NCBI GenBank assembly: GCA_014885115.2
Contig: WKLE02000853.1
Span: forward strand, 1-64,000
Length of the DNA stretch: 64,000 nucleotides
Direction of reading: 5' to 3'
Origin: Asterionellopsis glacialis
Lineage: Eukaryota > Bacillariophyta > Plagiogrammaphyceae > Rhaphoneidales > Asterionellopsidaceae
Shown here: positions 5,712 through 41,334 of the stretch, piece by piece
Position numbering within the stretch: the first letter of the stretch is position 1
Layout of the letters: every line of letters begins with the position of its first letter
Position numbers and translations under genes: made by a program
Notes under the pieces: generated by a model
Database searches by the model: none
Told to the model about the DNA's origin: nothing
What the model saw: the letters and a program-made list of their open reading frames with translations, nothing else

Positions 5712-8700
5712 TCAAGCCGTATCTTGACCTTTTTGGTACGACTCACAAATACTGGATATGTCTTCGTACTCCGATCTTAGCTCTTCCGGAGACAACAGAA
5801 ACAGTTCATCAAATATTGACCCAAGACAGGCACCCATAGCATCTACACCGATGGATAGTACCAAAGCACCTACAATTGCCTTATAAGAGAACGTCAAATC
5901 TGCAGTGAATTCTTCTGGTACCTTTGTTCTGTGACCCATAATTCTACCTCCAGCAAGCCCAGCGTATCTAGGAACTGCGTCTGCTACACCTATTCTTTTG
6001 CGAAACTCTTCTATGCCGTATATCCAGCCCCCGTTCTGTTTCCAGAGGTCACTCCCCTCACTATCTGCCAGCATCATTTTGTATCGAAATTGAACAATAG
6101 CATTTGCATCTTTATCATAGAGAACCTCATGAAGGCCGGCCTTACAGAATGCGTAACAAAGCACATCGTCATTTGATGCGCATGTACGGAGTAAGTGCAT
6201 GTCACCAGCTGTGGCAAGAGGAAACTTGTGAAATATCCGCTCGGTTACGTAGAGATACAAAGCGTGGTGTCCGACGTAGTAAAGCGTGTCTCGAAATATT
6301 GCGACACGATAGAGGCCTTCAAGCTCGTTCACCATCTCTTCCACATTCTCGGAACCATCTGATATTACCGAGGATTCATTCGGAACATGCGACATATCTG
6401 TTGATGGATCTTCATCTAGATCCAGGACTTCATCAAGATTGTCATCAAATAGTGCGCAAATCACCAACACCTTTGACAGCTGCGTTTCTAGTTTCTTTTT
6501 GAGTTCAGTAGGGCATCCCATATCATCGTCAAAGATGTTAATGAGGTTCTTCCAATTTTGTTCTAGTCTGGATATTATCTCTGATTCACAATAAAGGATC
6601 GTTCCAAGCTTGACAAACTCCTTCTGCCACGCCTTGTCCAACTCAAATGAATACCCTCCAGTTAGACAAGGATTCTTCCCTACAGATCTAAAATACGGCC
6701 AACCAAATTGGAGATCTTTGCCATCCACATCTGGCAATGGCAACCGAAGTTCCTCGAGAAGCCCAATTACCATGCACCCATCCGTGCGGTCATAATCACA
6801 CCGTCGTCCTTCAATGAAGGCAACAGCTAGGAGACTCTCCACTACGTCAGCTAGGGCTTTATCGCTTATTTCACAATGGCGATGATCTTCATATTCAAGC
6901 AGAGACATATCATATTTTTTATTTGTTGGACTACAATCATTCGGTGCTGGTTTGCGATGGGCACTCCTCCAAGCATTCCTTAACGTCTTTGATTCTATTA
7001 TGCGACTGATGCCAATTCGAAGTGCAGCATCCGCAAGCGTTTTATTTCTTACCGCATTACTACCTATATCTGTCAAATCGTTTTCGTCAAATTGTAATTT
7101 ACTATTTCTCGCCATTAAATTGATCGCGATGAAAAACCAAAGGACTGCGTCCCCCAGGAACTCCAACCGTTGGTAGGTACAAGGCTCGATTGTCGTTGCT
7201 TCGGTGACAAGGGAGGGCAGCGAGTGTTCAATGTATAAGTTGCCTTCTGTACGCATTTGCTTGGATTCCTGAGAACCAGAGCATTGAACTCCAGCATGTA
7301 CATGGTAAGCAAGCTGACGCAGTCGTTCAGAAAATTTGGTAACTTCAACTGCCCTTTCAATCGCAGACAAAAACTTATCGGAATGTTGGCACAAGTACAG
7401 GGCATCCCTGGGCATGGGTAGTACTTGTACAAGTTCCGGTGCAAGCAGTACCGGTTCTTTCTGACTTTTCACTCTTAAACAGAGGTCATGATGCGCATGT
7501 TTTTTGACCAACTGAGTTCTGAAAAGCGGCTCCCTGGGCTTTCGGAGAATAATGGCGTGTTTCTTATAGTAGTAGTCAAAGTAAGTAGTCTTTCTCGAAT
7601 CTAAACTGTCACAGAGAGACATAGCTGTTTCCAAGGATCCGGTCTTTTCATTCTGATCCAGCACATAAAGTATATTGCGTTCATCTACCCGCTGCTGAAA
7701 GAATCGATTTTCTAGGATTGATGTTGGTAATGGCCGACGCGGCGGAACAAATCGTTCGCAACAAAATGCAATCATAGCAAAAAGCACAAATGCGTCACCT
7801 ATGATAGTCTCCCACATTGCCTGATCAATGTTAACAAAATGTAAATTCTTGTATAGACTGCCAATAATCTGCATGTAGATATAAGGCCCATGGGTAGCAA
7901 GGGCACCAAATATAAAAGTCCATCCAATGGTATTCAAGTCAAGAGCACCAATGAATGGAAAAATCCAATTGGCATCTATAGGTGTCATCAAAGCTGTTGT
8001 TGTATCGGTAGCAATCTCTTGTAACATTGCCCAATTTATCTCGAGTTTGGAAGCTGAAGTTGACGAATGGCACAGTAAAGGCACCATTAGATAGGTCCTA
8101 TCGCGAGGACATGTTTCTTTCAGAACATCAAAGTCTTCCGGTATTTTTCTGTAATCTTTTCCATACAGATTCCATGAAAAGATTAATTGGTTGAACTTTT
8201 GAATCCACCATAAGGAACTAGACTTAGTGGGGTCTGCATGGACGATAGTTCGATTTTTAAGACTTACGGTTATCGTCTCAGATTTGCCGTCATTTGTAAG
8301 TGGAAGCTCAAATGTCGTTTGGAACGTGTCACCGCTTAACGACTCCCTCGAGGCAAAGTCTTCGGCAAAAATTATCCCTAGTTTTGTAACCGCTTCAGGG
8401 TGAATTCCCATTCTGCTAGGAACGAATGACTCACAATTCTCTGTTAGAAATGCAATCTCATAGAGATACACTTTTTTTTCAAATGATATTGGGGTATTTG
8501 CCCAAGTTGGGACCGGATAGACATATGTTGCTGCCTGTTTCAAGCAACGAGACAAATGCTCCAATACAATTTGATCATAACGAAATGTCTTATTGTCAAT
8601 ATCTCTATCATCTTCATGTTCGTCGTTGTCGTCGTCAATACTAAGACTAGTGCCCATGTTCCTATCGATATTCACTTTTTTCTCTTCCCGCTGTTCACGT

Positions 8701-10040
8701 TGTAATTTTTCACCAAGTAAAGCCACTGCACTTGCAACAGCATCTTGCTTCGACTGACATGGTAGTCCAACTACTGATAGACAAATTGGTGATGTGACAA
8801 TCAGTATACAAGAAAGTAATGTGGGTGCATCTCTAGACAAGGCATTAATTTGAATTTTTGCATTCCACGTAGATGACATGCGTTCTCGAAAGACAATACT
8901 AGTACGCGATGGATCCACTCCCAATTCATGTAATGCACGGTATAATTTTTTGACATGGCCAGGATAATGACGACGACCAGCTGTCATTTTGGCTAAAAAG
9001 TAAGCTTTTCCTTCTACACTTGTAAAGATTGAAATTAAATTTGACAAAACTGTGAATCGTTTCGCCACACGTTTGGATCCAAATATTATCGTGTGTTCTT
9101 CCTTGTTGCCAACTTTTTCATTTATCTGGAATTCACCACAAATTCGTTTCAAAAGATCTATAATCATTATTGTATCATCCTCGCCAACATTCAAAGGCAA
9201 CTTCTGTCGTATGGAAGAGAGATTAGTAAAATTGGACTGAAATTCTTGTTTTGTTAATGGGCATTGAAAGGTACATATCCATTGAGGTTGATGTGCCTCA
9301 TCTGGATTGACATCTTCTTCTTTATAATTTTGTTTTAAAGTATCAGGATGAATATTCATTTTTTGATAATATTCATTCATTTCCTTGACGGGATTAGTAC
9401 TTGATTGATAAATCCATTGAAGAAATTGCAAACACGTATATTCTTCATGGTCCTCGCTGTTATCACCGACGCTTTGTTGGTGACCATCACTAGGTTTTTG
9501 TTGAGATTGTTGATGTTGTTGTTTCATTGTTGTTGTTGTTGTTGCTGCTGTTATTGTTTGATTGAAAGTTTGAGATTGATCATCGTCTCCATTAGGCTGT
9601 AAAGGGAGTTGCAAAGGGTTTTTTGTTTCCGTATCGCTATTTCCTCGTATTGAAGTAGTAGAAGTGGTGGTGTCCATCACGTCACTTTCCATTGACAAAA
9701 ATGAATCTGGATCATCATGCCCTTCTGAATCTATTTCTTCACATAAAAAAGATTTATCATTTTCCTTGGATAAGAAAGAATCTAACGTTTCGTCATCTTT
9801 CATACGCAGGGATTCTAATGTTGTTTCATCTTCATTGCCATGACTGCTATTTTGACCCTCTTGTTCACCACAATTGTCTACATTTTCATCTGGATCTTCA
9901 TCTAGACGTCGTGAGTAAACAGCAGCATCATGACTGTTATTGTTGTTACCAACAACGCGACTACTTGTCTTTTGTTGTAAAGCTAGAGTTGTTGGTAAAT
10001 TTGTAAAACGAAACCCTCCACCACTACGAAAGCCGTTCAT
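5712..10040 (-). CDS. DCL: Dicer-like RNase III, helicase-less, second RNase III domain degenerate
   Basis: A single 1442-residue frame. Residues ~1-220 are acidic and Gln/Thr-rich, probably disordered. Residues ~355-450 resemble the Dicer dimerisation fold (ending SKQDAVASAVALLGEKL). A platform/PAZ-like region follows and ends in the Dicer-type connector PELVQVLPMPRDALYL near residue 890. RNase III domain 1 (~945-1080) has the full signature RLEFLGDAVL and the second motif KALADVVESLL, so it should be catalytic. RNase III domain 2 (~1245-1400) keeps the fold but reads YYVGHHALYL and YKAIVGAL, so the acidic metal ligands appear to be lost. No DExD/H helicase is present, in line with the reduced Dicers of protists. 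The likely role is processing double-stranded RNA into small RNAs. The start ATG at 10040 is followed by an open frame with no visible intron. Divergent from the Rad7-like gene. Confidence 0.85.
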   Translation of the reverse strand: MNGFRSGGGFRFTNLPTTLALQQKTSSRVVGNNNNSHDAAVYSRRLDEDPDENVDNCGEQEGQNSSHGNEDETTLESLRMKDDETLDSFLSKENDKSFLCEEIDSEGHDDPDSFLSMESDVMDTTTSTTSIRGNSDTETKNPLQLPLQPNGDDDQSQTFNQTITAATTTTTMKQQHQQSQQKPSDGHQQSVGDNSEDHEEYTCLQFLQWIYQSSTNPVKEMNEYYQKMNIHPDTLKQNYKEEDVNPDEAHQPQWICTFQCPLTKQEFQSNFTNLSSIRQKLPLNVGEDDTIMIIDLLKRICGEFQINEKVGNKEEHTIIFGSKRVAKRFTVLSNLISIFTSVEGKAYFLAKMTAGRRHYPGHVKKLYRALHELGVDPSRTSIVFRERMSSTWNAKIQINALSRDAPTLLSCILIVTSPICLSVVGLPCQSKQDAVASAVALLGEKLQREQREEKKVNIDRNMGTSLSIDDDNDEHEDDRDIDNKTFRYDQIVLEHLSRCLKQAATYVYPVPTWANTPISFEKKVYLYEIAFLTENCESFVPSRMGIHPEAVTKLGIIFAEDFASRESLSGDTFQTTFELPLTNDGKSETITVSLKNRTIVHADPTKSSSLWWIQKFNQLIFSWNLYGKDYRKIPEDFDVLKETCPRDRTYLMVPLLCHSSTSASKLEINWAMLQEIATDTTTALMTPIDANWIFPFIGALDLNTIGWTFIFGALATHGPYIYMQIIGSLYKNLHFVNIDQAMWETIIGDAFVLFAMIAFCCERFVPPRRPLPTSILENRFFQQRVDERNILYVLDQNEKTGSLETAMSLCDSLDSRKTTYFDYYYKKHAIILRKPREPLFRTQLVKKHAHHDLCLRVKSQKEPVLLAPELVQVLPMPRDALYLCQHSDKFLSAIERAVEVTKFSERLRQLAYHVHAGVQCSGSQESKQMRTEGNLYIEHSLPSLVTEATTIEPCTYQRLEFLGDAVLWFFIAINLMARNSKLQFDENDLTDIGSNAVRNKTLADAALRIGISRIIESKTLRNAWRSAHRKPAPNDCSPTNKKYDMSLLEYEDHRHCEISDKALADVVESLLAVAFIEGRRCDYDRTDGCMVIGLLEELRLPLPDVDGKDLQFGWPYFRSVGKNPCLTGGYSFELDKAWQKEFVKLGTILYCESEIISRLEQNWKNLINIFDDDMGCPTELKKKLETQLSKVLVICALFDDNLDEVLDLDEDPSTDMSHVPNESSVISDGSENVEEMVNELEGLYRVAIFRDTLYYVGHHALYLYVTERIFHKFPLATAGDMHLLRTCASNDDVLCYAFCKAGLHEVLYDKDANAIVQFRYKMMLADSEGSDLWKQNGGWIYGIEEFRKRIGVADAVPRYAGLAGGRIMGHRTKVPEEFTADLTFSYKAIVGALVLSIGVDAMGACLGSIFDELFLLSPEELRSEYEDISSICESYQKGQDTA

Positions 10041-15279: not shown

Positions 15280-18200
15280 ATGACCTCCATAGCAAGGCGT
15301 CGCCGTATAGTGATTGATGATGAGGACGATGATGATTCAAGCTGCAGTAGCAACACTAGTAGCGGTAATGAAGATAGTAGTAGCGTTGAAGTTTTGAAGA
15401 ATCCATCATCAAAACTTAGTAGTAATAACAACAACAACAATGCTTCAAAAACATTTCACCGTAAAAATAATCAGATTATTTTGGATGATGATGATTCGTC
15501 TTCTAACGAAAATGACAAGGACGTTGACAATGAGAGAACTATTCTTCGTGAAGTAAACGTTTCCAAAAAGAAATCATCCACTGAAGTACACAACCAAACT
15601 AAAAATACAAAATCGCGTCAACATCGTCCAATTATCTTTGAAGATTCTTCTTCGAGCGATAGGGACAATGACGAGGTAGATCTTCTTGGAAGTGACAGCG
15701 ATGATGATGTTGATAACGAAGTAGACCTTATGGATAGTGACAGTGACAAAGAAAATGACGGTCTTGAAAAGAAAACTCCTGCACGGTCACAAGCTAATAA
15801 TAATTGTGACAATGGCGACAACTTACTAGAAAATATGATGAGTTCCTTACAAGTTTCTAGTCCTACTGCAAACAGTGACGATGGATCTAAGAATGGTCGT
15901 AGTTCAGCTTCATCATCTTCTTCTTCATGCTTCTATTCGCCATCATCGTCTCGGTATACAAGAGCTAGCATGAACCAAGATGAACAGCAAGAAGAATCCT
16001 ATAGTTCTTCAAGTGATTCTTCGCTATTAACGCCAACACAATCAAGTTCAAAATCTTCTACTTCGTCGAACTCGGAGGACTCAAAGTCCACTGGTATCAC
16101 TGGGTTTTATGATGATGAATATGATGACTGTGCTTGGAAATTCAGTAATAAGAAAAAAGATTACCATTTATCAAGAAAGAAATATTCTATAGAGGGTGTA
16201 ACGTGGCCTAAAGTATCGATTCCTTGTGACCTTTATGGGAAACTTTACACGCATCAAAAGGAAGGTGTACAATGGATGGCAAGTCTACATTCGAATGGCA
16301 TTGGAGGTATCTTGGGTGATGACATGGGACTTGGAAAAACATATCAAACCCTTACTTTTCTTGGTGGGTTAATGCGTTCACAAACCATTCGAAATGCTCT
16401 CATCATTGCACCTGTATCTGTCCTCCGATCATGGGAAAAGGAAGCAAACGAAATTATCAAACAACAATGCGTGCCAAGAGTAAATATAATTGTAGCTTCA
16501 AGTGATGTTCACAAAAGGCGACGTTATAATATGCTGTTGGATGCTCAAGAATGGTAAGTTTCAACATTTAGGAAACCTTTGTTTGGTCAAAAATATACAA
16601 CTGCATGTTGTTCGTTGTCGTAAAAAATGCATAACTTACACCATACATCAAATTGTGTTCCTAATATATTTCTCAACAGCTCATCAAGAAATCCTTATCT
16701 AGTCATTACTACATATGGGTTAGTACGATCTGCCCCATTAGATTTCGTTGCGATGGAGAAGCAAGATAATCGACCTTGTTGGGATTATGTTGTATGTGAC
16801 GAAGGCCACCTCATTAAAAATCCTTCTGCCCAAGTAAGCAAGAGTTGTCGTAGGATATGCAAAAACCAATCCACACGCCGTCTTTTGCTTACTGGTACAC
16901 CTATCCAAAATAATTTGAAAGAAATGTGGGCTCTTTTTGACTGGGCAACATCTGGTAGACTCCTTGGAAAGCTAAAGGTATTCGACAATCGTTTCGCTAT
17001 CCCCATTGAAGAGGGTCGGAACAAATTCGCTACGAATCGTAGCATGAATATTGCTGAGAAGTGTAATAATGAATTGCAAGCCTTAATTCGTCCTCATTTC
17101 CTCCAGCGTCTGAAAAAAACAACTTTTGGAGAAAAACTCCCTACCAAGCGAGAACTCGTAGTCTTTACGCATTTGTCTTCCAAGCAAAGAAAAATGTATG
17201 AAACCTACATTAAAGGTGAAAAGGTTGGTTCCGTTTTGAGAGGAGAGGTTGCTAGTCCTCTAGAATCCATCACATGGTTGAAAAAGCTTTGTGGTCATAC
17301 TTTGCTGGTTGAAAGACAGGGTCAAGATCTTGGATTGGCATCAATAGATGCTAAAAAGCTAATACGTAGGAGCGCAAAGCTTGAGGTGCTTGTAGCACTT
17401 ATCGATGAACTCAGGAAATCTCGTCATAGAACTTTAATCTTCTCACAGAGTACAAGGATGCTTGATATCATTGAACGGACGCTTGCCCACGTGAATACTT
17501 CAAGGATTGATGGATCCACCAAACAAAAAGACCGCCAAAGGTTTGTTGATGACTTTAACAACAACAGGAATGTCGACGCGATGCTACTTTCTACAAAAGC
17601 TGCTGGTCTTGGTTTGACATTGACTGGCGCAGATCGTGCAATTATTTGTAAGTTTTGGACATGACGCACGAGATAGTACCATACGCTTGCTCATTGGACT
17701 CACTTTCTGCTAAACTGTTTTTTTTTTTTTTTTCCTTCTTTCAGATGATCCAAGTTGGAATCCAGCAGAAGATTCGCAAGCTGTAGATCGATGCTATCGT
17801 ATCGGACAAATGAAAAATGTTACTGTTTATCGACTTATTGCAGCAGGGACTGTTGAGGAAAAGATGTACGAAAAACAAGTACACAAAGATGGGATTCGAA
17901 GAGCGGTAATGACAACTTCCGGCACTGCGACAGAACGATTTTTTGACAAGAAGGAATTAAAAAAATTATTCCAGCTTGCTCCAGCAGGGGAATGCGAAAT
18001 ATTGGAGAAGATAAGAAAGGATGGACATGTTGAAGATGATGGTGTTTCCAACAAAAGATCGTTTGTTCAGTCACATGGCGGAGTTGTCGGTATGGCTTCA
18101 CATGATGATATATACTCACGATCTGTCATTGAAATTAAAGGTGATCAAGGCCACCAAACTCCTTTTAGCACACCAGCAAAGAATCTAGGCCGCGCCCAGT

Positions 18201-18619: not shown

Positions 18620-19231
18620 TACTGTGGGACTGAAAACTGAATTAATATAGTAAATGAAGAGCACTGAAACCAAACTGGAAGAATTCACTTTCTCAATGTT
18701 CAAGAGTTTGAAGGAAGTTGACATTAGTGTGACCTGTATTTCCTCCACCAGTGCCGTTACATTCTCTTTATCTGTAGAACAGGACTTTGCCTCGTTACGT
18801 ATTCAAAATTCCGAAACAGGTGAGAACGAAGTACCTGTACGGTGATTACTTCTCTCTACTAGAGAGTGATAAACAGACATGATGAATACCTAAATGTCAA
18901 CTCTGCTTCCGGTATGAGAAAAAAGAAAGGTGTATCATCACGTTTTTCTGTCCTTCTGCATTATGCGCGTACCGGTACCTGGTACTCTAGAGCACTTGTT
19001 TTTTCATCTTGTGAACGAGAAAAAAATTAAGAGTGTAATAAAAGGAGTTCCGTTAAGAAGCCGTTAACAAACATACGATTTCCTTCGTAGGAATTATTGA
19101 AGTTCAACAGGTTGCAGATGGCAGACACACAATTCTCAATTCTGCAAAAATGCGGATTAGAACACTTTTTTTTACCTTGTGTTGTTCGATCATTTCGTTG
19201 ACATTACAGTTGATTATTGTCCCCAAACGCA
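18620..19231. other. Intergenic region with a short GGTACC-type palindrome cluster
   Basis: About 610 bp after the SNF2 gene. Around 18,969-18,988 it carries overlapping palindromic GTACC/GGTAC motifs (taccggtacctggtac), the same family as near 26.2 kb and 30.4-31.2 kb. The small frame 18654-18845 has no support as a gene. The rest should contain the upstream region of the gene starting at 19232. Confidence 0.45.
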
Positions 19232-19765
19232 ATGACTATAATGATGGGACCAAACAACCGATTCAATTTCATTCGCTGTTACTACGTAGCACTGACAATA
19301 TTCTTTTCAATGATGTTACATAACGTAGAAGCTAAGAATATACCTCTTGCTTCTGGTGACAGTATTACAAGTACTTCACGCGTTGCGTTTTGTCAACAAC
19401 AAAAACGAAGAAGCGACATTAACAACCATTTCAAGTCCTCGTTTCCCTGTTCGTCATCTTGTTATGTGAGCAGATTTGATGAAAATTTTGATACTCATGA
19501 GTTTGGTGAAGATTTCAACAGTGAAGAAACGTCCACGATGGCAACAACAACTCTACAGAAACTACTGGAATTAGAACGCACACCACAACATCCTAAAAAT
19601 ACAAAGCCTCTACCTCTGATGCCATCACCTTTGACACTTCTTTCTCAAGTAATTTTTTCTATCGTATCATTACTTGTTGGCGGGTATTGGCTTTTGCTTT
19701 TATCAGCAATAGTAACGACGTTTGCCTCCTATGGTATTGATGGTATTTTCTTAAGGGTACGATAA
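19232..19765 (+). CDS. Hypothetical small secretory or membrane protein
   Basis: The open frame extends upstream to a TTG at 19217, but the first ATG is 19232, giving 177 residues. A hydrophobic segment near the N-terminus (YYVALTIFFSMMLHNVEA) looks like a signal peptide or anchor. The middle is polar, with a short acidic patch. One long hydrophobic stretch near the C-terminus (VIFSIVSLLVGGYWLLLLSAIV) is a clear transmembrane helix, possibly a helical hairpin. No known domain is recognised. An N-terminal segment plus a C-terminal membrane hairpin would fit a small plastid or ER membrane protein, but there is no clear AF-type plastid motif. Confidence 0.6.
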   Translation: MTIMMGPNNRFNFIRCYYVALTIFFSMMLHNVEAKNIPLASGDSITSTSRVAFCQQQKRRSDINNHFKSSFPCSSSCYVSRFDENFDTHEFGEDFNSEETSTMATTTLQKLLELERTPQHPKNTKPLPLMPSPLTLLSQVIFSIVSLLVGGYWLLLLSAIVTTFASYGIDGIFLRVR

Positions 19766-20003
19766 GGCGAAATCTAGTTTTGGATACTGACTGTAACTAG
19801 TGTTGTGAAGATGGAAAGCCAAAATACTGTGAACTGTACTGATTGAACCACGGACACGCGGTTGATATTGAGTGTTGTTGTTCTACCGGAATACTGTAGT
19901 GACAGAATTTATTTGTAAGATATAGAGTAAATTACATATTTTAAAGCGTTTGTTGTAAAGTATTCTAATGAACTATATTATATGCATGTAAGATTTATTT
20001 CTA

Positions 20004-21860: not shown

Positions 21861-22402
21861 TATTTCTTCGCCACAGTCAAGTCCTTGCTTATGAGTTTAT
21901 AATACCAAAATCTTTGTTTCGAGTGAGACGAGATAACTTCGAGTGGAGTCTTTGTCTTCTGCTTTGGCAACAAACAAGTAAATTTATTACTTGTCGTTCA
22001 TGTGCTATGCTGTACTGCCAAGGATGAGAAAAGAAAAAGTCAACGTGGTTATTTTTTGGTGTGTCAATAATGTTCTCAGAAAAATGACTCACGACCTGAT
22101 TGACTCACACCACCTATCTGCCGATAGTCTTTTCAACCGAGTGTCCCATCCAATCAAACCTCTCGAAAGAGGACAACATGCGCAGTAGGAAAGTGCGCGA
22201 AGGCGATGGTTCAGTGTTTTGTAATGCGCGTGCCTAATATGCCTATTGTCCCCATCCTTAATCCGAAATTCCCTACTTTGGAGAGCTTTACCTTTTCTAG
22301 TCTAAAGTCTAGAAACTATATTCTAGGCAATGACAAAAGATGGCATTGATGTTGTTCCCTATGGTTTAATAACTTGGAACAGAGTTGCACTATAACACAC
22401 AC
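21861..22402. other. Intergenic region, RseP-like promoter side
   Basis: About 540 bp with normal CpG content (for example several CpG between 22,120 and 22,220). It holds the promoter of the RseP-like gene next to 21,861 and ends where homology to the 28.47-kb region begins. No gene is recognised. Confidence 0.5.
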
Positions 22403-22790
22403 AAAAATTCATTCAGTTAGTGTGATCAATTCTTTTTTTTAACAGTACTTTTTAGTCCAAAATCAACCTTCTCAATCAAATTTGATAGAATATAAATCAA
22501 TGTACCCACAAAAAAATGCTTCTATGACCTAAACATTTTTGACTCTGTTGTTGACAATGATGCTGTTCTCCTGCATCAATCCCCTCCCTCACTGCAATTC
22601 CCTCTTACTCACTGTTGCCGTTTTGCCACCTCCACGATCTCCTCCTCCCCATCCTCCTGCATTTTTATGGGGATCAATTGTGTACCTGTTTCTTATGTAA
22701 TAGCTTTGGATCTATGAAGCAGAGTCATATGCACAACAAGAATGTTCACAATTGTAACAAGAGCTGCTCTAGGATGAACACTGTCACACT
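22403..22790 (-). pseudogene. Truncated, decayed copy of the Cys-rich membrane protein gene at 29.2 kb
   Basis: The segment aligns by eye with 28,472-29,690. It starts with the shared stretch cagttagtgtgatcaattc (22,416 and 28,484) and continues through the gene's 3' flank, its Gly-rich C-terminal codons and a short piece of its Cys-rich part (catatgcacaaca). Two blocks present at the intact locus are missing: about 28.52-29.11 kb (3' flank) and about 29.37-29.63 kb (coding). No frame survives. Three CpG sites of the intact locus (in ttttcgactc, gtcgctgac and accgcaat) read TpG here. This is a non-functional duplicate forming the left edge of the CpG-poor segment. Confidence 0.8.
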
Positions 22791-23045
22791 TGCTCAAGTT
22801 TTGAAAGTCTATTTATTAGGGACTATTAATCATAATTTATACCTTTGGAAAGAATATTAAAAAATTTATGGTTGAAAAAAGCAAAGGACAAGATAGAAAC
22901 GTACCCTGTAACATTATTACTGCAAACTCTGTATGTAACTCATATATAATTTAGTACTATGAAAATTTCATTTTTGACGCATTTTTTATGTCAAGTACTA
23001 TTATCACTGCATTTTTGCAGGGATTTGAATAGTGGTAGTGTGTGG

Positions 23046-23314
23046 TAATATTACATGATACACTACATTCAATCACTTTGACTGTACATTTTTCATTTTT
23101 GACTGTACCATAAAATAATCCCAAAAATGGTGGGGAAAATATCCAGGTGACATTCCGGGATGTTATGTTGCTTAGTAGTGCATGGTATTACTTGGTATGA
23201 GGTAGTCTAGATGCATGGTTGTATTACATGCTATATGCTTAACCCTGGTATAAATCCTACAGGGAACATGTTGTAATATTATATGGCACACTACATTCAA
23301 ACACTTTGACTGTA
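23046..23314. repeat. Imperfect 41-bp direct repeat pair
   Basis: Two 41-bp copies, 23,046-23,086 and 23,274-23,314, share the core cactacattcaa and actttgactgta and differ at about four positions. They are 228 bp apart inside the CpG-poor segment. They may be remnants of a short repetitive element. No larger structure is seen. Confidence 0.7.
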
Positions 23315-23937
23315 ATTTTTTTTTAAATGGCTATACATTTTTACTGTACATTTTGAATGTGCAGATGCTACCGTAGTTCATATTAAAGCCCCCCCTCCTC
23401 TTATTAATACATTTTCTACTGTATTATTATTTGTAGGCAGCAGATTGGTGTGCCATTGCTCCTGCTGACTATCAGCTAGTTACATAAACTGTATGTACTT
23501 TCCAGTAGAGACAACTATGTTCTACCAGTTACCATGTAGGACCTACTCCCATGCCACAATTGATTGAACTGGACCCTGCACAACATATCACAGCAACCAG
23601 CTAATACTGATCAGCACACCTGCCTGTCAAACCAGAACAACCTTTAAACCCAAGCTCACCCTCCTTCTGTCTTTATTGTCCTTGTCATGCCTTGCTGTAA
23701 GACATTGTCACTGTCTCCATTTGTTTTTGTTCATTGCTGATTCTCTGTTTCTTTTGTTGGGATGATCTGATGGATTGTTCTTGTTGTATTTGTCTTTTTG
23801 CTAGTTCTACATGGATGTGGGTTACACAATTGACTATGGTAGACTGTATGACTGTGATTACTTTCTAGTAGTTTGGTTTTTAAAACAATCTCATAAACTT
23901 TCCTACCTTATCTCTTTTTTTACTAATAAGATCAGGA

Positions 23938-24066
23938 TCTGCTAAACCTCCTATATGATACCCTGGCTGCTATTTTCATCCTCCTCAACCTAATTCTCCT
24001 GCTGTGGGTGCTACTGGTGCTACTGGTGCTGCTGGTGGTCCTGAACCTCCTGCTGATGATGATTAA
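23938..24066 (+). pseudogene. C-terminal fragment of an unknown protein with a Pro/Gly/Ala-rich tail
   Basis: The frame reads SAKPPI, a stop, YPGCYFHPPQPNSPAVG and then a Gly-Ala-Thr repeat, ending PEPPADDD and TAA at 24,064-24,066. The repeat is a run of ggtgctact-type units at 24,006-24,033. Directly upstream is a possible splice acceptor (atcag at 23,931-23,935) and Cys-rich hydrophobic coding-like sequence with stops. The composition is that of a small membrane protein with a proline-rich tail. The parent family is not recognised. The internal stop and loss of frame upstream mark it as dead. Confidence 0.4.
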
Positions 24067-24252
24067 TTTTCCATCTTGACTTGAAGCCAAATACTTTTAC
24101 CATTCTTATTTAATATGATCCAAAAGGATGGTAAAAGTCATTGTTGCCAGGTAGGACAGAGGAATATAACTCCATTGTAGAAAGGAAGGCTTCCAGTTCA
24201 AACTTTTAATTAGCAAGACTGATAGAACAAACCCTGTCCCATTGATGATGAA

Positions 24253-25266
24253 GTGAATACTTGGGTGCATCCTGATTTTGTAACAGGATTTACCTGGTAC
24301 TTTTGGCATTATTATGATGATGTAAAAAATACAACAACTCCAGCACAGTTTGACACTTTAATAAAAACTGTTTTTAACCTTCCTCAGAGTCATCCTCATA
24401 GATGGTACACAAGCAAAAAAAATCCAACACCTCCAACAATCCATCTTTACCAAAGGCTATCTTGTACACCCAAAGAAAGTTATTATGCACTTGATGAATA
24501 TAAAAGCAGCTGTGCAGCATCTATGGAGAAAGTAGCAAAGTCTAATTTTGGTAGACAATCACCACCTATCCTTAAAAAGACTGCTATCATGATGAAATCT
24601 TCCAAACCAAGTCAACAAAAGTCTTCTCTTTCCATGTTTGCAGATGTAGTCTCCACCAAATCACCAATAACCCATTTACAAATTCATATTACTTCAAACA
24701 AACAAAAAAATCTCTTCTTCCAGAGCAACCCACAATTCAGGATGTACCTGGAGATGGTCATTGTTTAAGAAGATCTATATTGGTTTCTCTTAGGATGGAT
24801 TCAACAATTCACCTTCCATTCTTCTTTGTTTAACTATATCCTACTAAAAATTGGACCAAGTGGAGTAATGAAAGGGAATACAAATATTTATCCTGGTTCA
24901 ACTTCTGATGCTCACATGAATCAAAAATACATCTCATGTGCAAAGAAGTGGTTAAGACAACAAGTTAAGTTTGATATTGAGGGCTGTAAAGAACAACACT
25001 TAGGTTTTGTACATACTTTGATAGCTGTTTTAATAACATAAAGGAGAAGAATTGCTATTTTAGTAGACAATCCAAGAGAAAGGGAACATTGCAAAGTTAA
25101 AATATATGATCATGATTGAAGATTCTTTTCCCCAGATATTGTACCAGTTGATTCTCACTAATTTTCACAAGAAGATATTAATTTATGTTGGTAGAGGGGT
25201 AGCCATTATCAAGCTATTGTAGCCAAAATACCCAATTCATGGAAATCAATCTGGGATGACTGGAAT
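24253..25266 (+). pseudogene. Decayed OTU-like cysteine protease gene
   Basis: A 171-codon frame (24,253-24,768) with a polar, Lys/Ser-rich sequence runs into a frameshift. Shifted by one base, 24,741 onward reads DVPGDGHCLRRSI, the Asp-Gly-x-Cys catalytic motif of OTU proteases. About 150 codons later, in the frame of 24,826-25,041, the sequence reads GSHYQAIV, the place of the catalytic His. Between them lies ILVDNPREREHCKVKIYDHD, typical of the OTU beta core. At least one frameshift and four stop codons interrupt it. OTU enzymes remove ubiquitin or similar modifiers, and such domains are also carried by mobile elements of many protists. The whole stretch lacks any CpG. Confidence 0.65.
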
Positions 25267-25306
25267 GTAATTATTTGCTATTTATTGAAAGCAGCCACAG
25301 AACAGC

Positions 25307-26040
25307 TTGAACAATATTTCAAAGTTTGAATTTTTGCCTAAGTTGGAATCAGAAAGTTGCAATCAGATTGAAAAGATATGGAAACAAATGGATGTAAATG
25401 TTAAAAATGAACTCAACAATAATGGCAGCATTCTGTTAGAGCATCTCATACATCCAATTCTGTGTCATATCATGACCCATGAAATACTTTTTGACCAAGG
25501 GTACCACCATAATTCACTAATCAACAATACAGTCAATAATCAGGAACAAACCTATTATGCAGAAATGATCAAGAGTCCTATTGGTTTTACATGGGGAAAT
25601 GATGGTACATGTTATTTTACAACCACCTCAGCAACTGTTGGAAAACTATACTGTCACATATTTAATGATGCATTAACTGATTCAGAGTGTCAACCTTATG
25701 CTCTTTCCACTGAAGTACTCATTCCAGCTAATAAATGGAAACAAAATATACACAGAGACATGACTTAAGATGATGGTGATAGATTTTCTCAGCAGGGTTA
25801 CATACCATTCTTCCTGATCATTCCTTTTATGAACAGAGTAAGATTAGACTTATTTGGGATGGGAGAAATTTCCCATGGAGGCATGTTATAATAGACCAGA
25901 AGAAGATATTGTCTCTGTCTTATGTGTGGATTGGAAAGTATGACATAGAACATCAAAACCAATAATGTGTCCTTATGGTGAAATAAAAGGACATACAATG
26001 AATGATTTAAGGCTACACTTTTTACATGCTTCTGAAGGAT
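25307..26040 (+). pseudogene. Unidentified coding remnant downstream of the OTU-like pseudogene
   Basis: A 153-codon frame (25,307-25,768) has protein-like composition (KFEFLPKLESESCNQIEKIW, PIGFTWGNDGTCYFTTT). It is followed, in other frames, by further protein-like stretches such as FPMEACYNRPEEDIVSVLC and MCPYGEIKGHTMNDLRLHF, each ended by stops. I do not recognise the family. Because the OTU-like sequence directly precedes it in the same orientation, both may be parts of one ancestral polyprotein or gene. Confidence 0.4.
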
Positions 26041-26189
26041 GAAAATATTGAAACTTCCATATTGAAAGTTGCTGATGAAACATTTTTGGATATGCCCTAA
26101 GAATAATCAGTCATTTACTAGATTTTAAAATATTAAAAACTTCAATGCAAACCACTATTAATTTCTATTCTTTGGGTGTTGCAGTGAGT

Positions 26190-26410
26190 TTGCCTGAAAC
26201 AACAAAAAATAGTACTGTACCTTGCACCTGATACCTAGGTACTGTACCAGGTGTTTCTCTGAAGGGTGCTACTGTAGCAGGTACGCAGAGTGACAACCCA
26301 TTGTACATAAATAAATAGGTCCTAATTTTAACAAGACTAAAAATTTCAGATACAATGTACCTGGTAATGGTACTGTACATGTGCCTGGTACTGTGATTGA
26401 GTACCAGACA
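26190..26410. repeat. GTACC/GGTAC palindrome cluster inside the CpG-poor segment
   Basis: Dense short palindromic motifs such as actgtacc, aggtactgtaccagg, cctggtaatggtactgtac and gagtacc. They resemble the cluster at 30.4-31.2 kb, where the equivalents often contain CpG (taccggta, acggtac). Here they read with tg or ca instead, in line with CpG decay of one motif family. Confidence 0.5.
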
Positions 26411-27489
26411 CAGGGTTTCATGTATCACACTGAGTTTAACATTTTTTACTAGAAAATAAGTAGAAAGTGTCCCACCCCAAATCAAGATGGTCATGTGATA
26501 AATTTAATATGCATATAATGAATATAAAACAATATATATAAACAACCCAGTTCTCAGACGAAGAACTCAAGAAAAAAAAGTCTTCTACCACTATAAAGCT
26601 ATGCACACCAAATGATAGAGGGCCCTCAAGGGGGAGCACTGACATGCTGGGCCAATTATACAGATGAGATTTTTTTCTCAAATTTTTTCCTCCTGATATA
26701 AACATCAAACACATGTTTGTGACTTTTGTATGGAACTTGGTTCAATCCTCCAAAATCATTGTATTATTTTAAATAATGTATTTTTTGTCATAATCCTCCA
26801 AAGACAATATAAATTATTCACACCAATGTAAAGTTTATATTCCAAATAGTATAACTACTATGTCAAGAAAATACTATTTAGAATTTGACTCCAAAAACAG
26901 ATGTAAGTCACATTCATAATGGACCAAATGCTGGAAAATGGTCAAACTTTATGTATTGGGGTGTAAGGCATGTGCAATAATAATAATGACATACACCAAC
27001 AATATAATGGAAGGATGTCTTGTTGCTAGTTTTTGCATTTATGAAGACTAGACAGTCTAGACATGTGTGTATTTACATGAACACAAAAGTTGAAAATCCC
27101 AAAATTGAATCTGCATAGACCACTATTAGAACAATCAGAACAATCACATATTGATGACAACAACAGCCCTTCTATGCATGTTTTACTTTTCTTAATTCTC
27201 ACAAAGAAAAGGTTTGTCAGGATGTGTTCTTACCTGACAAATACAGTGAACAAGAAAAACAAAACTACTAACCAAGTCATGCATTTATAAGAAAATGAAA
27301 ATTTACAGAGCAACCAATTAAATGAAAAAATAAGACTGCTCTAGCCCCCAAAGGCAGGTTCTATCACAGATTCACAGCCTGCAATACTGAACCTGCTTGT
27401 TGACCCCATAGTGTGACCTACTGACTGCAGACACATAAACATATAGTGAAATTGAGTTATGCTCATTAAAGAGGCCATATGTCCAGTCT

Positions 27490-28083
27490 GGATGACCAGC
27501 TGCTGTTGCAAATGTAATTACTTTTGCACAAAGTGATGACATTGCAACCCTCTACCATGTCAATGAAGTGACACTTCAACCAATCAGTTCCACTCATATC
27601 AATGGCCAAGCTTCCTACCATGTTGTAACCCCAGCTGGAGTTATTGTCATTTCAGGAGATAGCTCAAATGATGAAGTGACCCAGAACTCCACCCATACTC
27701 AAGAAGTGATAACATTGAGAAGCTTGCTCAAAATGCTGACATCTTGGTCCATTTGGCTATGCACCCTATCATGCATGATAGTGGTTTCCCTGCAAAGGTA
27801 ATCTTTGAAGCACTGCTCCTGACATTTCCAATATGATGTAAAAGGCTGGAGTCAAGAATTTGGTTCTCACTCACATGTTTTCTCCTATTGGTGCTGATGC
27901 TCCTTTTATTTTCCCAGTTCCTGGTGGTCCACTTGATGAACAAGATTGGATTGATGCTGTGAAAGAAGGTGACTTTGATGGAGATGTCTATATTGGGAAG
28001 GACTTAATGACTATTCAGATTTCAGAAAAGCCTACAACAAGTGGTTATAGTGCTAATCAAACCAGAGAATTCAATAGATTATG
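27490..28083 (+). pseudogene. Decayed metallo-beta-lactamase-fold hydrolase gene
   Basis: Read through frame changes near 27,712 and ~27,820, the sequence gives VITFAQSDDIATLYHVNEV, then YHVVTPAGVIVISGDSSND, then IEKLAQNADILVHLAMHP, then GVKNLVLTHMFSPIGADAP and DFDGDVYIGKDLMTIQI. These match the order of a ribonuclease Z/arylsulfatase-type MBL protein: the strand pair before the SGD metal-ligand motif, ADILVH, LVLTH with a metal-binding His, and the final strand. The first HxHxDH motif is not seen, so the 5' part is missing or further decayed. At least two frameshifts and one in-frame stop (near 27,838) are present. The end at TGA 28,082 looks original. No CpG occurs in it. Confidence 0.6.
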
Positions 28084-28103
28084 AGAAAGTTATCTAGATT
28101 CCC

Positions 28104-29232
28104 GAATTCATTCACACATGCAACTTTTATCGGTTGTCGTCCATTGTCGTGCTGACACGTTTTTTTCCTCATATGTCCATCATCTCTGGACTCTCATCTT
28201 TGTCCATACTTAAGATAGAGTATGGGTTATTACTATTTACCTTTTGTGTATTTTCCATCTTCAACAAAAACCAAATCTTGTGGAAGACGACAACGATGAC
28301 GATATCTTGACTGTAGATAATAAAATAATAATGTTGATGAGGATGATGTTCCCAAGAATCCAATTGTGACACCCAAGATATTATGAGAATGTATTTCTTG
28401 TGTACGTTGATATTAACCAGTTGTACCACCAGATATATCCCCCTATATTGTCTAAGCGTATGTGTAATAAACAAAAATCATTCAGTTAGTGTGATCAATT
28501 CTTTTTCTAAAAGAGTACTTTTGATTACTTTAGTCTGATCCAAATTTAGATGGTTTGTAACCAGAGTCATAAACGAGTGTGGGTGGAGAATAGAATTTGT
28601 TTTTTGGGTAAGAGGAATTATGAATCCATGAATCCGAGTATCATGAATATCACATTTTGATGGGAACCTTGTCGATGCTAAAGGTGTGATCGGCTGGCTT
28701 CCAACGGTCACAAACGGTTGCTGACGTCTGTTCGCGGTATTAGGATGCCCGTGGTTTGTACCAGGGGCGATTAACATCACATACTAGGTACGATGTCCAA
28801 TAATACTAATTGCATACAATTTTTCTTACTACGTTTAGTTCGCCATTTTCGACCCTGCGCGTAGTGGTGTCGTATAGAAAAGAGATTACCAATCGATCTT
28901 TGAAGATGCTGCAACATCACATCGTACACGTAATCATCAAAAAATAAAGTCCTCATTTTCGTTGAAGCGCAGGATACCGAGAATAAGCAAGTGTCTTTAC
29001 ATATTATTATATACAAAATACATGCACTGATACAGTAGTAGACTAATTCCACCTGCTTCAAATTTCAAATCACATCGGATTTCATTACTTTCACAGATAC
29101 AGTACAGTACATCAAAATCAACCTTCTCAATCATATTTTGATAGAATATAAATCATTGTGTGCAGAAAAAAAATGTTTATTTGACCTAAACATTTTCGAC
29201 TCTGTCGCTGACAATGACACTCTTCTCCTGCA
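28104..29232. other. Intergenic region right of the CpG-poor segment
   Basis: CpG density returns to normal at 28,103 (five CpG within the next 60 bases). From 28,472 the sequence is the parent of the broken copy at 22.4 kb. Frames 28169-28474, 28478-28780 and 28777-29061 (-) have no recognisable features. The part next to 29,232 is the 3' flank of the Cys-rich gene. Confidence 0.5.
28472..28515. repeat. Start of the duplicated block shared with 22,403-22,790
   Basis: The 3' flank of the Cys-rich gene begins here to match the left edge of the CpG-poor segment (cattcagttagtgtgatcaa in both), in the same orientation and about 6.07 kb apart. It marks a tandem duplication whose left copy decayed. 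Confidence 0.7.
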
Positions 29233-29907
29233 TTAATCACCCCCCCCACCGCAATCCCCCCCCACACTACCACCGCAATCTCCTCCTCCTCCCCATCCTC
29301 CTGCATTGTTATGGGGATCAATTGTACCTGTTTCTTGTGTGATAGTTTTGGATCCATCTGGATTTGTAACCTCCTTGGTTACAATAACACTTCCATCAGG
29401 GTTCTGTGTTGTAAATTCTTTTTGCACCGCAGTGTCTCCTGTAGTAATAGGAAGCACAGCCGAATTTGCCATTACCGGTTCATCAAGTTCAGGTTTCTTA
29501 CAGCAACATATCTTACCATAAAGCGGACAACAGGAGCAACATGCACAACATGCAAATACGCATCCTACAATTGCAGCAATAACTGCAATAATAAAGATAA
29601 TACCTCCCACGGAAAAGCCTTCACAGCATGAAGATGAATCATATGCACAACACGAATGTTCACAATATAAACAATTATCGTTGAAGGACGAGATGCAGTA
29701 CTTATCCCACAGAGAGGACTCTGACTGGAAAAAACCACAGGAGCCATCCCATACATGGCCATAGGAACATCTTCCACAACTTGCTAAATCTCGTTCATCT
29801 CCATTATCTTCATTGTCGGTTTTCAACCAATGTAAAGCATCATCTGCCAGGCTCGATTTGCTCAAGATTGACAGTGCAGCTAGGAGAGTTTTAAATACCT
29901 TATTCAT
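29233..29907 (-). CDS. Cys-rich single-pass membrane protein of unknown function
   Basis: 224 residues, no intron. Residues 1-21 are a signal peptide (FKTLLAALSILSKSSLA). Residues ~42-95 are an extracellular or lumenal Cys-rich module with about 12 Cys (CGRCSYGHVW, CLYCEHSCC, SSCCEG). Residues ~98-118 are a transmembrane helix (GGIIFIIAVIAAIVGCVFACC). A juxtamembrane Cys cluster (CCACCSCCPLYGKICCC), likely palmitoylated, follows. The cytoplasmic tail has PDGSVIVTKEVTNPDGSKTI and a Gly-rich end with GGGGDCGG repeats. The plan resembles shisa-type or similar small Cys-rich receptors, but no family can be assigned. A damaged paralogous copy lies at 22.4-22.8 kb. Confidence 0.75.
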   Translation of the reverse strand: MNKVFKTLLAALSILSKSSLADDALHWLKTDNEDNGDERDLASCGRCSYGHVWDGSCGFFQSESSLWDKYCISSFNDNCLYCEHSCCAYDSSSCCEGFSVGGIIFIIAVIAAIVGCVFACCACCSCCPLYGKICCCKKPELDEPVMANSAVLPITTGDTAVQKEFTTQNPDGSVIVTKEVTNPDGSKTITQETGTIDPHNNAGGWGGGGDCGGSVGGDCGGGGD

Positions 29908-39969: not shown

Positions 39970-41334
39970 ATGTCAAATGCTTTTGTAGGAGAGAAACAAA
40001 AGAAATGGACGATATTGGGACAAGATCCTGATGTTTTGTTGGCCATGTGGGCCAATGTCGTATCTTGGTGTGTTTCAACGTTTTTCCCATCGTTCTTGCC
40101 AAAATTATTACCTAAATGTGATCAAGAAGAAACAACCGTAGTCAAAGGAAGCAATACTACTACTGTGGGCGGACCTACACGTTGTATATCTATTGGTCGT
40201 CCAGGGGGGATGGAACAATTACGTTTAGTATCCTTAAAACCTGGTATTGTCACCATGGGATATAACATTGCCAAGGGAACAGCCTACACTCCCAAACCAA
40301 TTCTGACAGAACAGGACATACCTCAAGATTGTGTCATTCTTCGTAATGAAGCCTTTTCCGTCAATTATGCCGACTGTACCATTCGATGGGGATTATATGA
40401 AAGTGCCAAACAATTTGTTGGATACCCCATTGTACCTGGATTTGATATTGCAGGGACGATTGAAAAAGTTCCAGAACAAGATCCCACCAATGACAACAAG
40501 AAAAAGCATAATTGGAAAGTAGGTGATCGTGTCTTTGGTTGTACATTGTTTGGTGCGTACAGTTCGCGTGTTTTAGTTCCTAGTATACAATTACGAAAGA
40601 TACCTCAAGATTGGACTATAGCGCAAGCTGCAGCCTTACCAGCGGTATCCTTGACAGCCTTGTATGCCCTTAGTCTTGCCGGACATTTCCCACAACAAGG
40701 AAAATATAGCAATAAGGCTATATTAATCCATTCAGCTGCAGGTGGCGTGGGTAGTATGGCAGTTCAAATGGCCAAACTCTTGGGATTATCACCCGTAGTG
40801 GGTGTAGTAGGGCGTACTGCCAAGGTGGAGGAAGCCAGGTCATTAGGGTGCGATGTTGTCATTGATAAAAGTCAACAAAATTTGTGGGAGGAAGCACGGG
40901 CTGCATCACCTCAGGGATACACATGCATATTAGATGCCAATGGTGTGTCGACACTCCAAGATTCCTATGATCATTTGGCACCTACAGGACGTTTAATCAT
41001 TTTTGGATTTCACAGTAACCTACCCTTGGGACGTGCCATGTTATCACCGTTGGAATGGATCCGCATGGCACAAAAACAATCCAAAATGCCTCAATTTGAT
41101 CCAATGGATTTGACCGTCAGTAACAAATCCGTACTGGGATTTAATTTAAGTTTCTTTGCCGATGAAACAGAAATAGTATCAGATATGTTTGATCAAATAG
41201 TAGAATGGGCTGAAACCAAACAAATCCGTTGTCCCAAGGTTGTGGAAATGCCCATGAACGAAATTGCCAATGCCCATGATTTAATTCAAAGTGGAAAGAG
41301 CGTTGGAAAGATTGTCATGAATACTTCAGGGTAA
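39970..41334 (+). CDS. Zinc-independent medium-chain reductase, VAT1/quinone oxidoreductase-like
   Basis: Intronless, 454 residues, longer than the ~390 of typical VAT1 because of a ~90-residue N-terminal extension with a hydrophobic helix (VLLAMWANVVSWCVSTFF). The GroES-like domain includes VNYADCTIRWGLYESAKQ and VPGFDIAGTIEKV. The nucleotide-binding domain has the AAGGVGSMAVQMAKLLG glycine motif (NADPH binding). The Cys/His zinc ligands of classical alcohol dehydrogenases are absent, as in the quinone oxidoreductase branch. It should reduce quinones or activated alkenes. The extension may tether it to a membrane. Confidence 0.88.
   Translation: MSNAFVGEKQKKWTILGQDPDVLLAMWANVVSWCVSTFFPSFLPKLLPKCDQEETTVVKGSNTTTVGGPTRCISIGRPGGMEQLRLVSLKPGIVTMGYNIAKGTAYTPKPILTEQDIPQDCVILRNEAFSVNYADCTIRWGLYESAKQFVGYPIVPGFDIAGTIEKVPEQDPTNDNKKKHNWKVGDRVFGCTLFGAYSSRVLVPSIQLRKIPQDWTIAQAAALPAVSLTALYALSLAGHFPQQGKYSNKAILIHSAAGGVGSMAVQMAKLLGLSPVVGVVGRTAKVEEARSLGCDVVIDKSQQNLWEEARAASPQGYTCILDANGVSTLQDSYDHLAPTGRLIIFGFHSNLPLGRAMLSPLEWIRMAQKQSKMPQFDPMDLTVSNKSVLGFNLSFFADETEIVSDMFDQIVEWAETKQIRCPKVVEMPMNEIANAHDLIQSGKSVGKIVMNTSG

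Follow-up and report, generated by a model that had tools for sequence, protein, structure and literature searches.

The DNA analysed here, referred to as the window, is a stretch of 64,000 bases representing positions 1-64,000 of contig C368 of the diatom Asterionellopsis glacialis, whose assembled genome comprises 40.3 Mb in 1,503 contigs. The window contains a block at positions 22,930-28,103, designated the desert, in which the dinucleotide CpG is almost completely missing: only 5 CpG were counted in 5,174 bases at 35.6% GC, corresponding to a ratio of observed to expected CpG (O/E) of 0.03, as compared with 0.77 for the whole window. An earlier note on this DNA, made by eye, had described two CpG-free runs with two sites between them, and the determined CpG positions reproduced this arrangement to within 2 bases, with gaps at 23,372-26,284 and 26,559-28,103 that are separated by the CpG at 26,284 and 26,559 only. 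The desert and its flanks can be divided into the following features, in which L031 denotes one of the additional genomic loci introduced below:

22,265-23,372, unstranded: graded left shoulder with five CpG over 1.1 kb plus CpG 23,372
22,401-22,760, plus strand: incomplete, decayed duplicate of the gene at 29,236-29,907, comprising its 3' part and downstream DNA, recognized by sequence matches
23,373-26,283, unstranded: CpG-free core of 2.9 kb, delimited by CpG positions
24,073-26,134, plus strand: dispersed repeat with broken reading frames and matches on contigs C144, C754, C1101, C1407 and C1149 (64-89% identical)
26,313-26,979, unstranded: short dispersed repeats with matches on 9 further contigs and 1 CpG vs about 17 expected
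26,560-28,102, unstranded: second CpG-free core of 1.5 kb, delimited by CpG positions
27,396-28,039, plus strand: segment without another detected copy in the genome, with frameshifted open pieces at 27,496-27,798, 27,675-27,833 and 27,842-28,081
28,040-28,234, unstranded: repeat straddling the right edge, with a second copy in the L031 desert
28,471-29,907, minus strand: CpG-bearing parent of the decayed gene copy, consisting of a gene (open reading frame (ORF) 29,236-29,907, minus strand) and downstream DNA

Extent and specificity of the CpG depletion

The scarcity of CpG in the desert was compared with two types of controls. Random shuffling of its bases (2,000 shuffles) yielded a mean of 164 and a minimum of 129 CpG, and 192 frames of equal length placed elsewhere in the window contained 151-227 CpG each. 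The depletion is specific for CpG, since the O/E values of GpC, CpA and TpG in the desert are 0.88, 1.32 and 1.55, respectively, in agreement with the earlier statement that GpC is not lost and that CpA is common. When the O/E ratios of the remaining window were applied to the desert, a deficit of 130 CpG was matched by a surplus of 86 TpG and 42 CpA (together 128), which is the excess that the earlier note had proposed to look for. The same comparison revealed further shifts for TpA (+59), TpC (-63), ApA (-63) and CpC (+41).

An explanation by base composition, that is by AT-rich intergenic DNA, or by selection has in its favour that the desert is richer in AT. The O/E value corrects for composition, however, GpC is close to normal, and CpG-normal blocks of similar GC content are present in the same window, namely positions 19,001-20,000 (36.1% GC, O/E 1.04) and 28,001-29,000 (37.2% GC, O/E 0.98). 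Low GC is thereby ruled out as the cause, as already argued in the earlier note, and an origin of the desert in composition or selection is scarcely credible.

The two edges of the desert differ. The right edge is sharp, with five CpG at 28,103, 28,131, 28,138, 28,148 and 28,158, whereas on the left side CpG is dense until 22,264 and is then found at 22,619, 22,635, 22,900, 22,978, 23,156 and 23,372 only. The description of both edges as sharp accordingly applies to the right one, the left one being graded over 1.1 kb (22,264-23,372), and the depletion therefore begins about 660 bases to the left of position 22,930.

Genetic content of the desert

A similarity search against the own genome, in which the best candidates only were scored, assigned matches of 64-100% identity to positions 24,073-26,134, 26,313-26,979, 27,114-27,395 and 28,040-28,103, the match of 100% identity extending over 28 bases. 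About 2.1 kb of the desert were without another copy in this search, although partners may be diverged, unassembled, lost or missed. These copy-less parts are depleted as well, with 3 CpG vs 39.5 expected by composition at 22,930-24,072 and no CpG vs 27.6 expected at 27,396-28,039; the repeat at 24,073-26,134 contains no CpG vs about 60 expected.

The block consists of dispersed repeats and otherwise dead DNA with broken reading frames, its longest stop-free stretch amounting to 180 codons. A consistent excess of differences at the third codon position was not detected between copies of the 24.1-26.1 kb repeat: the section 24,234-25,152 differs from the copy at locus L020 by 22, 23 and 19 changes at the three codon positions, and among the other stretches compared, one (against L021) yielded 16, 18 and 24 differences (of 91 per codon position) and another 16, 16 and 7. 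The drift of this repeat therefore looks neutral, and there is no good sign of a CpG-free element under coding selection. Searches of Pfam and NCBIfam assigned this repeat to no family with a credible score. One translated stretch of the dead repeat, VPGDGHCLRRSI (approximately 24,743-24,780, plus strand), presumably resembles an OTU peptidase motif, and a search of this piece against the PDB gave no match. Likewise, the open pieces at 27,496-28,081 are assumed by us to resemble the C-terminal half of a hydrolase with metallo-beta-lactamase fold; a credible match to a protein family, the PDB or a protein database, one search being confined to proteins of similar short length, was not obtained, and none of these searches confirmed the resemblance. 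The PF12706 family has matches above cut-off on four other contigs.

The desert is flanked by a partial duplication of a gene end. The left copy (22,401-22,760) matches the parental positions 28,471-28,522 (91%), 29,113-29,357 (79%) and 29,628-29,674 (85%) and lacks two internal segments, which measure approximately 590 and 270 bases. In the longest of these matches, four parental CpG have letters opposite to them, and the decayed copy reads TG at three of these sites and CT at the fourth.

CpG deserts elsewhere in the genome

The analysis was extended to a sample of 31 sequences with 275,816 readable bases, comprising the window, 50 kb more of the contig, 15 loci chosen by similarity to the window desert (L020-L034) and ten blind-picked stretches, in which a desert was defined by a CpG O/E under 0.2 in sliding frames. 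One more contig with a match to the desert, C125, lies outside the set of 15 loci. The depletion recurs at repeat loci of the genome: a desert of at least 1 kb was present in 14 of the 15 similarity-chosen loci, the exception being L030. In total, the sample contains 83.8 kb of desert with 139 CpG and an O/E of 0.05 vs 0.74 outside. A second desert of about 9.6 kb was located on the contig of the window itself, at approximately 101.4-111.0 kb (from position 7351 of L018 to position 6950 of L019), 114 of the 118.6 kb of this contig being covered. Moreover, 8,800 bases (21%) were classified as desert in the blind-picked stretches, which were taken from ten contigs with 5 kb each (41,577 readable bases, one stretch consisting entirely of N).

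The distribution of O/E in 210 frames of 500 bases from the window and the blind stretches showed a main mode at 0.6-1.0 and a smaller one at 0-0.1, with a thinner middle. Many 500-base frames with intermediate values of about 0.1-0.6 were found at the loci L036, L038, L039 and L041, which may be younger decayed repeats. Repeat matches cover 27% of the desert bases in the sample vs 8% of the others, a comparison that is biased by the choice of loci. The L034 desert includes a fragment of a reverse transcriptase gene (E-value 8e-16), and 17 further pieces from the sampled deserts and L039 revealed no Pfam family above cut-off.

Direction of the changes in aligned copies

Five alignments between a desert copy and a copy outside of deserts were available, one of which, that of the gene copy of the window (78%, under the 80% desert cut), was added by hand. 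At the 56 sites with CpG in the outside copy, the five alignments showed TG 21 times, CA 20 times, CG once and other dinucleotides 14 times in the desert copy, 46 of these sites being derived from a single element pair (L039/L034). Accordingly, the decay is directed to CpG and strand-symmetric, with TG or CA at 41 of the 56 sites, whereas GpC was kept at 53 of 100 sites and other dinucleotides at 53-68% in the same alignments. Independent decay of one ancestral CpG in two copies is expected to leave mismatches of TG opposite CA. Such mismatches were counted 97 times in 58 alignments between desert copies (17,582 columns), vs 17 for the mirror control AC opposite GT; the alignments overlap, and the counts are therefore not independent. 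A comparison of nine copies of a further repeat (26,434-26,660) revealed six columns with mixed TG and CA vs one control column.

The repeat at 28,040-28,234 has five aligned CpG outside of the window desert, all of which read TG or CA in the copy within the L031 desert. This repeat keeps its CpG outside and loses them inside a desert, so that the fate of CpG seems to be tied more closely to location than to sequence.

These comparisons also bear on the suggestion of the earlier note that the DNA was acquired from a CpG-avoiding source; this could be a virus or another foreign element, and its DNA would never have possessed CpG. The CpG-poor state is shared by two copies (79% identical) of the 24.1-26.1 kb repeat, and this repeat may have spread or been duplicated when it was already poor in CpG. 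Three findings nevertheless speak against a foreign origin of the whole block: part of the neighbouring gene is present in the desert as a copy that decayed likewise, unrelated repeats are depleted too (among them the one with the reverse transcriptase fragment in L034), and the repeat at 28,040-28,234 retains its CpG outside of the desert but has lost them in the L031 desert. Additionally, two pieces had no relatives in viral contigs in a search sensitive to close relatives only. The block is thus neither foreign as a whole nor are its related copies uniformly CpG-poor, and a CpG-avoiding source is regarded as very improbable, the case against it being weaker for the 24.1-26.1 kb repeat.

Comparison with repeat-induced point mutation

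Repeat-induced point mutation (RIP) in filamentous ascomycetes converts C to T, mainly at CpA, in duplicated DNA. The desert differs from this pattern by its excess of CpA and its loss of CpG; it also includes DNA without detected copies, the partners of which may have escaped the search. The RIP indices were calculated as described previously (PMC8063080) and amounted to 0.79 in the desert vs 0.70 outside for TpA/ApT and to 1.42 vs 1.24 for (CpA+TpG)/(ApC+GpT), the latter being raised and not lowered. Classic RIP is ruled out by this raised index along with the surplus of 42 CpA, and the opinion of the earlier note that fungal RIP does not apply here was borne out.

A RIP-like process of the diatom, in which a methyltransferase or deaminase acts on duplicated sequence and mutates CpG in a burst, would fit the near-complete loss, with 139 CpG left in 84 kb of deserts, and the large excess of CpG transitions, which an equilibrium model of all sampled deserts puts at about 48 times the reverse transition, a lower bound if the decay is ongoing. 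On the other hand, the 139 surviving CpG displayed no clear preference for flanking bases (chi-square P of 0.39 for the 5' base, the 3' base being judged informally), which gives no indication of a deaminase with sequence preference. Loci of intermediate O/E exist, the copy-less 2.1 kb of the desert are also depleted, with the reservation on missed partners given above, and CpA is in excess where classic RIP would remove it. Such a burst is therefore considered improbable.

A DNMT5-type methyltransferase gene and other genes of the window

A gene of relevance to DNA methylation was identified in the window itself:

44,784-51,366, plus strand: DNMT5-type methyltransferase gene of four ORF blocks, combining a methyltransferase part with a SNF2 helicase part; distance to the desert about 17 kb

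The DNA_methylase family has eight matches on six contigs of the genome, one of them within the window. The ORF blocks 44,784-45,308, 45,461-46,201, 46,077-48,566 and 48,637-51,366 match the protein chain 7r76_A with E-values of 7e-41, 2e-59, 2e-85 and 5e-147, respectively, and are collinear with its residues 308-420, 437-661, 660-1408 and 1406-1927. The second block carries the methyltransferase domain and the fourth the SNF2/helicase domains, uniting both functions in one protein, and the motifs ATMCSGTESP and GTSCVDYSN align to the chain. We take 7r76_A, deposited as 'DNA repair protein Rad8', to be the DNMT5 protein of Cryptococcus; a literature search found no confirming paper. The genome is thus predicted to encode a CpG methyltransferase, the specificity for CpG being deduced from membership in the DNMT5 family. 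The location of the gene about 17 kb from the desert is taken as a coincidence. The uracil-DNA-glycosylase family has two matches in the genome, which are uninformative on weak repair of T:G mismatches.

Several other features of the window were recorded. An ORF of 1442 amino acids at 5712-10040 (minus strand) contains two RNase III stretches and possibly specifies a Dicer-like protein, and a SNF2/helicase gene in two ORF blocks is located at 15280-17664 (plus strand). The protein encoded at 39,970-41,334 shows full-length identity to the product of an MMETSP transcript; the readable species names among the matches listed belong to diatoms, e.g. Thalassiosira, Cyclotella, Seminavis and Mayamaea. 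Searches of the whole window for tRNA genes and for Rfam families (at gathering scores) were negative.

Proposed methylation and decay of silenced blocks

The data are best explained by CpG methylation of silenced repeat blocks followed by deamination of 5-methylcytosine, reaching adjacent DNA without detected copies, and we assign a probability of about 0.85 to this explanation. The desert would then represent old diatom heterochromatin made up of dead repeats and trapped host DNA, the CpG sites of which would have been, or would still be, methylated, probably kept so by a DNMT5 maintenance activity after the silencing of the repeats as the driving event. Spontaneous deamination would convert methylated CpG to TpG (to CpA if the opposite strand is affected) at a rate far above that at which other mutations regenerate CpG, so that almost no CpG would be left after long silencing. 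The affected unit would be the block of chromatin, and therefore adjacent copy-less DNA would decay along with the repeats, the unmethylated flanks keeping their CpG. The proposal of the earlier note that the locus is long-silenced and CpG-methylated is supported by the symmetric decay of CG to TG and CA with respect to homologous copies, by the retention of GpC and CpA, by the many similar repeat loci and by the DNMT5-type gene.

Several observations weigh against this explanation. The sampled deserts were defined by their low O/E, and 15 of the 31 sequences were picked for similarity to the window desert. The decayed gene copy provides just four informative sites, in addition to two CpG of its own without letters opposite. 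A relation of the loci of intermediate O/E to repeat age is putative, and the implied excess of CpG transitions (about 48-fold at equilibrium) is high. Moreover, 22 alignments between outside copies (8,607 columns) contain 63 mismatches of TG opposite CA vs 13 in the control, a frequency per column no lower than between desert copies; the change of CpG in repeats is therefore not confined to deserts, which are marked by the completion of this change and not by its mere occurrence. Finally, the section 24,234-25,152 and its 79% identical copy at L020 show TG opposite CA once in 982 columns, although about a dozen such mismatches are estimated for fully independent loss, and the more distant copies at L021 and L024 contribute one to three sites per alignment. 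The CpG of this pair were therefore lost before duplication, and not every copy can be accounted for by decay that followed insertion. This pair is most simply read as a duplication of DNA that had decayed beforehand; an ancestor that was poor in CpG while active is a less simple reading.

A broader version of the methylation model is unlikely in our view, namely that a CpG-directed genome defence drives silenced blocks to near-complete loss of CpG, either because methylated CpG is hypermutable (about 50-fold or more) or through an active, CpG-directed process. A CpG-free block cannot carry CpG methylation and would therefore be silenced by other means or left unguarded. If such a defence operated, CpG-free blocks could still be duplicated as CpG-free DNA, and the CpG map would preserve the boundaries of silencing as a heritable fossil record.

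Relation to known systems and biological meaning

The bulk DNA of vertebrates is methylated and poor in CpG through the decay of 5-methylcytosine to TG and CA. This depletion is global, with an O/E of about 0.2, whereas that described here occurs in blocks with an O/E of 0.03-0.05. Methylation in the diatom Cyclotella cryptica occurs mainly at CpG and covers repeats in blocks that reach 30 kb and lie next to gene-rich blocks free of methylation (PMC5124317). The present deserts likewise form blocks over repeats, but methylation was measured in C. cryptica and a mutational footprint is read here; the stem 'deaminat' is absent from the text of that paper. In Phaeodactylum tricornutum, methylation is reported to be restricted to transposable elements (PMC12344493), and CG methylation is lost upon knock-out of DNMT5a, a DNMT5 protein with a SNF2 part (PMC9998398). 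The gene found in the window resembles this type, while a decay of CpG has not been described for Phaeodactylum in the available text of these sources, the term 'deamination' being absent from the main text of PMC9998398. A study of diatom mutation rates refers to methylated C as being more mutable (PMC6604790). The rust fungus Austropuccinia psidii possesses CpG-depleted transposons that were ascribed to deamination of 5-methylcytosine, the methylation machinery being present and methylation itself hypothesized (PMC8063080). Both cases share the loss of CpG in repeats without a classic RIP signature, but the rust genome consists of more than 90% repeats (PMC8063080), whereas CpG-normal and CpG-free blocks are sharply separated in the 40 Mb diatom genome. 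A report on CpG decay in diatom repeats was not recognized among the listed hits of a literature search, judged by titles and abstract openings, which is no proof of absence.

Since CpG methylation over diatom repeats and CpG decay in a rust fungus have already been reported, the desert is best regarded as the mark that a known process has left, in unusually complete form, in a diatom. This near-completeness is modest news, the process itself being known elsewhere. It raises the question of how silencing is maintained once CpG methylation has no sites left. The deserts offer a natural measure of the mutability of methylated CpG in a lineage with a DNMT5-type enzyme. The CpG map may record which regions of the genome were silenced, and the CpG O/E alone would map long-silenced diatom domains and their edges without methylation data.

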